Shown piece by piece: positions 10,861 through 15,943 of a stretch of DNA of 47,615 nucleotides. The stretch spans positions 1-47,615 of the IMG/VR virus record IMGVR_UViG_3300044675_000835. One strand, 5' to 3'. Within the stretch, counting starts at the first letter, position 1; each line of letters starts with the position of its first letter. This stretch comes from a virus. The notes under the pieces are model-generated. The model saw nothing but the letters and a program-made list of their open reading frames with translations, was not told the DNA's origin and did not search any database. The translations under genes were made by a program, and so were the position numbers.

Positions 10861-10934
10861 TGGCATACCTCCAGAGATTCGAACTCCGACTAACAGTTTT
10901 GGAGACTGCTATGCTGCCGTTACATCAGAGGCAT
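10861..10934 (-). tRNA. tRNA-Trp (anticodon CCA)
   Basis: The minus strand folds as a complete 74-nt tRNA. The 7-bp acceptor pairs ATGCCTC with GAGGTAT, with a G discriminator and an encoded CCA end (10861-10863). A 4-bp D stem (ATGT/GCAT) follows. The anticodon arm is GCAGT-CTCCAAA-ACTGT, giving anticodon CCA for UGG. The T arm is CGGAG-TTCGAAT-CTCTG. It is embedded in the late operon between small protein genes, so it is probably processed from the late transcript. Phage tRNAs can supplement translation or mark integrase target sites. Confidence 0.96.
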
Positions 10935-13796: not shown

Positions 13797-14651
13797 ATGT
13801 TTAAACTTAAATCATTCAAGCCTACAGCAACAAAATTTATAGCATTGCAAGATTTTGCTGTAGTGCTGCAAAATGGCAGCATTGCCGATATTAATGCAGC
13901 ACTGGCAGTAGTTAAAACAAAATTCACGGGCATTGCATGGCAAAGCAATTTTGCTAAGCTTGAAAGCGTTATTAATACCATGCTGCCAGAATATACAATA
14001 TTCGCAAAAGGCAATAGCAAATTACCATTCTATAGCTTTTCTACATTACCCGCTGTAACATGTGCTGGTGCTGGTGCATGTTTAGATTTTTGTTATTCTT
14101 TTCGTGCATGGCGATATCCCGCTGCATTCATGCGTCAGGCACAAAATGCTTTGCTTATGCGTTTTAACCCTGATGCTATTGTCAGTGAATTATCCGGTAT
14201 CAATGGGGCTTTTGAGTTACGCTTATATGTTGACGGTGATTTTGCCAGCGTTAATGATGTTAGTTTTTGGGTGAATACTTTGCAAGCAATGCCCTTAATC
14301 AAAGCATATGGTTATTCGAAAAGCTTTAATGAATTACTGGCATTCGATAAAATCGGACAATGGCCTACAAATTATGTTTTGAATATATCTAGCGGACATA
14401 ATCATAATGCCGATACCATTGCACTAGTTAAAGCATTGCCTATAACCCGTGGAGAATTTGTTGCTGTATCTATTGGTAGAAAAGTAAAGAGTAGTGATCA
14501 TGGCACAATTGAAATAAATAAAGCTTTGCGTGAGCATAGCATAGGTAAAATATTCCCGTGTCCCGGCACATGTGGCACATGTACGGGAAAAGGCCATGCA
14601 TGCGGCATGCCTACACTTAAGGGCATAACCATTGCCATAGCTATCCATTAA
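13797..14651 (+). CDS. Cysteine-rich protein, mycobacteriophage Gp88-like
   Basis: A 284-residue protein. It has a Cys cluster CAGAGACLDFCYSFRAWRYP (C89, C95, C99), the pattern of the family named after mycobacteriophage gene 88, followed by a region with VDGDFASVNDVSFWV and a second Cys cluster near the C-terminus (CPGTCGTCTGKGHAC). The spacing could hold a metal or iron-sulfur cluster. The function of the family is unknown to me. It is preceded by ATAAGGAAACAAACC and followed at once by three tandem repeats. Family assignment is from memory. Confidence 0.75.
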   Translation: MFKLKSFKPTATKFIALQDFAVVLQNGSIADINAALAVVKTKFTGIAWQSNFAKLESVINTMLPEYTIFAKGNSKLPFYSFSTLPAVTCAGAGACLDFCYSFRAWRYPAAFMRQAQNALLMRFNPDAIVSELSGINGAFELRLYVDGDFASVNDVSFWVNTLQAMPLIKAYGYSKSFNELLAFDKIGQWPTNYVLNISSGHNHNADTIALVKALPITRGEFVAVSIGRKVKSSDHGTIEINKALREHSIGKIFPCPGTCGTCTGKGHACGMPTLKGITIAIAIH

Positions 14652-14716
14652 TGGCAGCACCTAGCTGGCAGCATGGCAGCACCTAGCTGGCAGCATGGCA
14701 GCACCTAGCTGGCAGC
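14651..14716 (+). repeat. Perfect 22-bp tandem repeat, three copies
   Basis: Three identical units at 14651-14672, 14673-14694 and 14695-14716, each starting ATGGCAGCACC and ending TAGCTGGCAGC. The first overlaps the last base of the preceding stop codon. Each unit contains CAGC/GCTG arms. An 18-base string spanning the unit junction also occurs inside the small membrane gene near 13721. It may be an RNA hairpin array or a protein-binding site. Confidence 0.9.
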
Positions 14717-15133
14717 ATGTTTTAATAAGGCATAAACCATTATGTTTTATTAAAGCATATTAAAAATGCTTAGTGGACGGGATCGCAAATATAATGCAAA
14801 CTGTACACAAAAGGTTCTAAGGGTAAACACCTATGGTTTTTCTGTAGGACAGCCCCGATAATTTAATTGTTCACTGATAGTGGTGAACAAAAATGTTCTT
14901 TAAAAATTTAGCATGGGTATCGGTGCATTGTGACAGCATGCACTATTGGCCTACGCAAAAAGCATATGCGTTAATATGTTTTATGCCCTAGTATATGGCA
15001 TTGAAAATATACATAGGAAATAGCGGATAGTATATCGGGGTCGGTATGCATTAACCCGCTAGCTTTCAAATATATTTTGCATAGGGCAGAGTATATTTAT
15101 CGAGCTAACATTTTCTGAATAGGAAACAAAGTA
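14717..15133. other. Non-coding interval with dyads
   Basis: About 417 bp without a supported gene. It contains a TTGTTCAC-N8-GTGAACAA dyad (14867-14890) and a GTGCAT-N9-ATGCAC dyad (near 14925-14945). I see no convincing promoter, though a second early promoter would be expected here. Confidence 0.55.
14867..14890. promoter_or_regulatory. 8-bp-arm dyad, TTGTTCAC-N8-GTGAACAA
   Basis: Perfect inverted arms at 14867-14874 and 14883-14890. There is no T-run directly after it on the plus strand, so an operator or RNA structure is more likely than a terminator. Confidence 0.5.
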
Positions 15134-15562
15134 ATGGACAAATACATTAGACCATTAACCACTGGATATATTAATCACGCAGAAGAACGGGATTGTACAG
15201 TGAGAGCATTAGCAAATAGTGCTGGTATAGTATATGGTAATGCACATACTATATTAAAGAAACATGGCAGGAAAGATCGCAAGGGTTGCACCAATTTAGT
15301 ATGGCACGATGCATATACTAATACTGGACTATCCCTTGTGGGTATATATGGCACAACAAAATGTGCAAAGCATATATCAAAGCGTCTTAATATTGCAGCA
15401 CATAAAGGCATAACCCTTGGGCGTATACTGCCACAGCTTAATGACGGTAGTTATGTTGTCATTATCACAGGGCATGCGCTGGCAGTAGTTAGTGGGCATG
15501 TCATTGATAAGGGTTTGAATCGTAGTAATTCGTCAGTGGTTGCAGTTTATAAACATTCTTAA
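15134..15562 (+). CDS. Papain-like cysteine-protease-type protein
   Basis: A 142-residue protein with the arrangement of a small papain-fold peptidase. A Cys follows a charged turn (EERDCTVRALA, C21) at the start of a helix. Late in the chain comes GSYVVIITGHALAVVSG with H114, then an Asp at D125 (GHVIDKG). Phage and plasmid proteins with this Cys-His-Asp order are known, but their substrates generally are not. It could cut a host or phage protein, or a linkage such as an isopeptide or amide. It is an early gene with the RBS TAGGAAACAAA. The catalytic reading is inferred from motif order. Confidence 0.65.
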   Translation: MDKYIRPLTTGYINHAEERDCTVRALANSAGIVYGNAHTILKKHGRKDRKGCTNLVWHDAYTNTGLSLVGIYGTTKCAKHISKRLNIAAHKGITLGRILPQLNDGSYVVIITGHALAVVSGHVIDKGLNRSNSSVVAVYKHS

Positions 15563-15574
15563 AGGAAACATATC

Positions 15575-15943
15575 ATGATGGGCATTAATGTTAGAAACAC
15601 AAAGGACAAACCCTTTGCTGATTTAATTGTCGATGGTTTAAAAACTATAGAGACAAGGGAAAGTAATAGTTTGCATCCTTATTTGGACGATAGAATAGCA
15701 ATTGTCAGGACGGGTATGGGTAAGGCATTTGCCATAGGTGAAGTTACTATCACTGGTTTTAGCTGGACTAATAGCGAAAGCATATTCAATAGTTATGAAG
15801 ACATGCATATGGTAGAAAAAGGAAATCCCTTTTATATTAAACAAAATGTGGGTAAGTATATGTATTTCTTAGACAATGCTGTGCGTTATAAAACCCCTGT
15901 TGCTGTTGGCAAGGGTATAGTGGCTAGACAATTAATCTATTAA
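15575..15943 (+). CDS. ASCH-domain-like protein
   Basis: A 122-residue protein. The start KPFADLIVDGLKTIETRESN is the classic beginning of an ASCH domain (usually P-W/F-A-x-x-I-x-x-G-x-K-T-x-E-x-R), a PUA-related fold that binds RNA or modified nucleosides. Strands around IAIVRTGMGKAFAIGEVTITG fit as well. It could act on host RNA or a nucleoside. An AAAGGAAACATATC site precedes two adjacent ATGs; I use the first. Confidence 0.72.
   Translation: MMGINVRNTKDKPFADLIVDGLKTIETRESNSLHPYLDDRIAIVRTGMGKAFAIGEVTITGFSWTNSESIFNSYEDMHMVEKGNPFYIKQNVGKYMYFLDNAVRYKTPVAVGKGIVARQLIY

Follow-up and report, generated by a model that had tools for sequence, protein, structure and literature searches.

Deamidases, transglutaminases, and acyltransferases are all found among the papain-fold enzymes; the third residue of the catalytic triad in papain itself is Asn, and an oxyanion Gln is usual in papain and in C39. 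The papain-like superfamily is well known and a census of it is available (PMC10318531). The active site of PCAT1, which carries a C39 domain, comprises Cys21, His99, Asp115, and Gln15 (PMC12184118). PeiR, a pseudomurein endoisopeptidase, is a lytic enzyme that cleaves pseudomurein, and the Josephin-type deubiquitinases are larger papain-fold proteins with ubiquitin-binding elements. Proteases encoded by phages are treated in a 2025 review mainly via capsid assembly, and the same review gives the sensing of viral proteases through cleavage as unknown between phages and bacteria (PMC12409349).

Here we describe a 142-aa protein encoded in a virus record (IMGVR_UViG_3300044675_000835, analysed as one stretch of 47,615 nucleotides, hereafter the window), which is almost certainly a papain-fold cysteine hydrolase. 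It is like the C39 domains of PCAT1 and ComA in size, topology, triad, and the Asp-Cys pair at the nucleophile, but differs from C39 (PF03412) in lacking an ABC transporter and Gln at the position Cys-6. With PeiR it shares the fold, whereas the sequence identity is 11-12%. Likewise, Josephin and other papain-fold deubiquitinases have the papain-fold core and the triad in common with it (Z about 6.5), a weak fold similarity without a sequence link.

The gene and its surroundings

The coding sequence of the protein, a member of the phrog_3754 family, spans positions 15134-15562 on the + strand with an ATG start and is a real gene; a probable Shine-Dalgarno sequence, AGGAA (15121-15125, + strand), is recognisable 8 bases 5' of the ATG. 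The reverse strand of 15134-15562 contains many stops and was rejected as a gene. The protein has no hydrophobic stretch at its N-terminus and is therefore probably cytosolic, and the ORF consists of a single stand-alone domain, unfused to an ABC transporter. Upstream of the gene lies a non-coding leader (14943-15115, + strand), whose identity to L002 is 91% as compared to 78% for the coding sequence, and for which a strong RNA fold is predicted (z of -3.65 on the + strand versus -1.24 on the - strand). An Rfam search of 14943-15115 gave no match, and the leader may possibly be a structured 5' leader or a regulatory RNA.

In the window, structural genes on the - strand flank both sides of a + strand block in which DUF932 and integrase genes were identified, and from their sequences further ORFs of this block are read as a primase-helicase, a DNA polymerase, and a ribonucleotide reductase. 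The gene lies near the start of this replication block, beside the divergent structural genes and away from the capsid and tail genes; because of this position, early expression fits. The integrase gene is of the tyrosine recombinase type (PF00589, 20701-21852) and is carried by a phage with its own replication module, and a tRNA-Trp (CCA) gene occurs at 10861-10934 on the - strand. The 5' neighbour of the gene for the window protein encodes GP88 (PF17338; 13797-14651, + strand), of which the predicted structure is a low-confidence model with no structural match, and directly 3' lies a gene for an ASCH-domain protein (15575-15943, + strand). Right after the GP88 gene, at 14651-14719, a 22-bp repeat unit, GGCAGCACCTAGCTGGCAGCAT, is present in three identical copies in tandem, and L001 has more copies of this repeat.

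Predicted catalytic residues and fold

In the initial annotation, the protein was called a papain-like protease on the order of C21, H114, and D125. The three residues are indeed present in that order in the ORF; as evidence for a protease, however, the order is uninformative by itself, because it arises in 96% of cases when the protein sequence is shuffled. Papain-like spacing of the three was found in 74% of the shuffled copies and also in 19 of the 54 window ORFs that are 100 aa or longer. The signal above chance lies in the conservation of the residues rather than in their order. The predicted nucleophile Cys21 (codon 15194-15196, + strand) and the predicted general base His114 (15473-15475, + strand) are invariant in 112 of 112 distinct homologues, and the predicted third triad residue, Asp125 (15506-15508, + strand), is Asp in 102 of the 112. 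The ten exceptions are nine Gly and one gap; in the relatives with Gly at 125 (the L189-L212 group) the sequences listed read ...DGVVIGN..., with an Asn one place later. Around the nucleophile we noticed a signature, E17-x-x-D20-C21-T-V-R24 (15182-15205, + strand), in which E17 is kept in 108, D20 in 110, and R24 in 99 of the 112 homologues, the other 13 having another residue in place of R24. An alignment of 62 diverse homologues has no invariant columns besides C21, R24, H114, and D125, and Cys52 and Cys77 fall outside the conserved columns. Thus the homologue comparison, both with the 62 diverse and with the 112 distinct sequences, bears out the claim for C21, which is conserved in every one of them.

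The AlphaFold2 model, computed from the 62-sequence input, has a pLDDT of 94.8 and a pTM of 0.89 and predicts a compact papain-like core of ~120 residues that is laid out like a C39 domain, which upholds the fold that the initial annotation had proposed. In the model, C21 is the first residue of the core helix (21-30) and caps it, H114 opens the strand 114-119, and D125 comes directly after the strand 122-124. This is the layout of the Peptidase_CA clan, in which Cys begins the core helix and His plus Asp/Asn lie on the beta sheet. For structural comparison VIA-align was run on chains ranked by Foldseek, and nearly all of the 50 best rows were papain-fold cysteine hydrolases. PeiR ranked first, aligning over 109 residues at 3.0 A with a Z of 7.7, and the C39 domains of PCAT1 (Z 7.3) and ComA (Z 7.2), each aligned over 108 residues at 3.3-3.4 A, and staphopain B (Z 6.8) were among the others; Z differences under 1 count as ties. 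With ~100-120 residues aligned, the papain-like assignment holds at the fold level only, because all of these Z values are under 8, where the tool warns of a possibly common arrangement. The region around Cys21 has some likeness to the OTU motif; no OTU protease was among the VIA matches listed, which carries no weight against such a likeness.

Foldseek against the PDB returned nothing at E <= 0.001, with C39 domains at ranks 1-3 (E 0.037-0.09; the best, 0.037, being ComA). The nearest models in BFVD were uncharacterised phage proteins, from TM 0.95 downwards, and one phage protein titled "Peptidase C39 domain-containing" was found at E 0.0035. The protein is C39-like in architecture, yet it is outside the C39 family. 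Membership was rejected on these grounds: no match to the family model, an insignificant profile similarity, and the missing oxyanion Gln. The PF03412 model gave no match to the window protein and matched only 2 of the 62 relatives (best E 0.045); the profile-profile comparison with hhalign reached an insignificant probability of 2.8%, with C21 aligned on the catalytic Cys21 of PCAT1. Position 15, which is Cys-6, is variable in the family alignment A3 (H, P, E, A, F, and others), but the C39 comparison alignment A5 shows a conserved Gln15. The latter set was seeded with a PCAT1 peptidase-domain sequence that matched PDB entries over its full length.

A phage-carried family with variable tails

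The phrog_3754 profile, annotated as of unknown function, matches residues 16-139 of the window protein (E 9.9e-12) as well as all 62 aligned relatives, and shares with the window protein the E-x-x-D-C motif and the C/H/D residues. Using tblastn, we found relatives in Limnohabitans phage DC31 (XLZ15390.1) and Curvibacter phage P26059A (ASJ79261.1), both at 45-46% identity, in Tunturiibacter phage Tunturi_3, and in Pseudomonas phages, mostly Otagovirus; the Otagovirus members are about 30% identical to the window protein but are shorter and lack R24. Members in Pseudomonas phages M5.1, REC, and 16Q carry the annotation "peptidase". Two scans of viral contigs yielded 137 relatives in one case and 329 in the other, the 80 best being retained from each. 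Two scans of a bacterial and archaeal genome collection, which rely on conserved peptides so that distant relatives could escape, gave no relatives, which is indicative of a phage-carried function and not of a common prophage or host gene. Searches of the window protein in Pfam, NCBIfam, and PADLOC gave no convincing family, and PDB sequence searches with the protein and with the profile gave nothing meaningful. Helix-turn-helix matches (E about 0.08) were at chance level and were rejected. No near-identical DNA was found among named phages, and we found no study of the phrog_3754 protein family in the open-access literature. In L188 (2683-4314) the family domain is fused in one ORF to an AAA_5 (MoxR/CbbQ-like) ATPase.

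The C-termini of some members resemble sliding-clamp motifs. A clade of nine distinct sequences (L041, L044, L046, L049, L051, L056, L057, L060, and L064) carries QAV[L/I]F at the C-terminus, followed by a further one or two residues, and Ala follows Gln likewise in the QADMF of Pol III alpha. A second clade, placed on the other side of a quick tree, ends in [Q/A/R]DNLELF with neighbours ending in QGSLF and QQELF (L073, L075, L076, L077, L079, L082, L176, and L178). QAVLF fits the accepted clamp motif, Q-aliphatic-x-[L/M]-[F/L] or its six-residue form (PMC11139829), and the remaining tails fit loosely. A loose clamp-motif pattern was present in 15 of 114 distinct family tails and in 16 of 892 background tails (12 of these being family members, which leaves 4 others), a comparison that is exploratory because the pattern was written after the tails were seen. 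No such motif is present at the tail of the window protein. In the members that carry them, the tails hint at a role close to the replisome. A bolder extension, in which a phage-only papain-fold protease family acts at the replisome and clamp-binding tails of some lineages would bring the protease to the host beta clamp to cut replication or clamp-loaded host proteins during takeover, is improbable in our estimate.

Probable activity and possible targets

Our preferred reading, which we hold with moderate confidence, is a stand-alone cytosolic papain-fold cysteine hydrolase, likeliest a site-specific protease or isopeptidase, that acts early on a host or replication protein. His114 would activate Cys21 and Asp125 would orient it for attack on a peptide or isopeptide carbonyl, and the oxyanion hole would be provided by backbone amides and perhaps by the Glu17/Asp20 region, in place of the usual Gln. 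Judged by gene position, the enzyme would be made early alongside the replication genes and would cut a host or replication-associated protein to aid takeover, rather than serve the maturation of capsid proteins. Considering the parts of this reading separately, a protease or isopeptidase is more likely than not and host-directed action has slightly less than an even chance. A defence protein as the target, which the initial annotation had put forward, is a poor prospect; PADLOC gave no match and nothing points to a specific defence target. Members of the family at large are likely to act on another protein, by cleavage or by modification, early in the infection.

The fold is also compatible with an enzyme that cuts no peptide bonds but alters a host protein or a small molecule, whether as deamidase, transglutaminase, amidase, or acyl/peptidyl transferase. 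Phytochelatin synthase (2bu3, VIA Z 6.2) and other non-proteases share the fold and the triad, the window protein lacks the oxyanion Gln that is usual in proteases, and the Pfam CA clan takes in acetyltransferases, transglutaminases, and amidases (PMC10318531). Nevertheless, the best-ranked structural matches are endopeptidases and isopeptidases and there is no specific tie to any transferase family, so we consider such an enzyme rather unlikely. A protease that matures a protein of the phage itself, e.g., the neighbouring GP88 protein, is more doubtful. Out of 95 loci, 22 others also have a GP88 gene, which lies either upstream or directly downstream of the family gene in different clades and adjoins it in about 18 of the 95, in both gene orders; moreover, most of the phage proteases known serve the maturation of phage proteins (PMC12409349). 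However, no GP88 gene occurs within the stretch examined in 72 of the 95 loci, and the gene sits apart from the capsid and tail genes.

The structural matches include Josephin-type deubiquitinases (3o65, Z 6.5; 9f5t, Z 6.4), which brings up an isopeptidase that removes the ubiquitin-like modifiers of bacterial antiphage systems (Bil, CBASS Cap2), and ubiquitin-like conjugation is established in antiphage defence (PMC10097602). Yet the fit to C39 domains and to PeiR is slightly closer, although by Z differences that amount to ties, and neither a neighbour, nor the host, nor PADLOC gives a link to Bil or CBASS; we regard such a role as a slim chance. A catalytically dead binding protein of papain fold is very hard to believe, given that Cys and His are invariant in all 112 distinct relatives and that an Asn, which is the third triad residue in papain, stands next to the position where Asp is lost.

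Since the superfamily is well known and some annotations already say "peptidase", the family, although unusual, is not a new kind of system. The widespread small cysteine hydrolases at the replication side of phage genomes, with 329 relatives in one viral-contig scan, are candidates for host-directed proteolysis.
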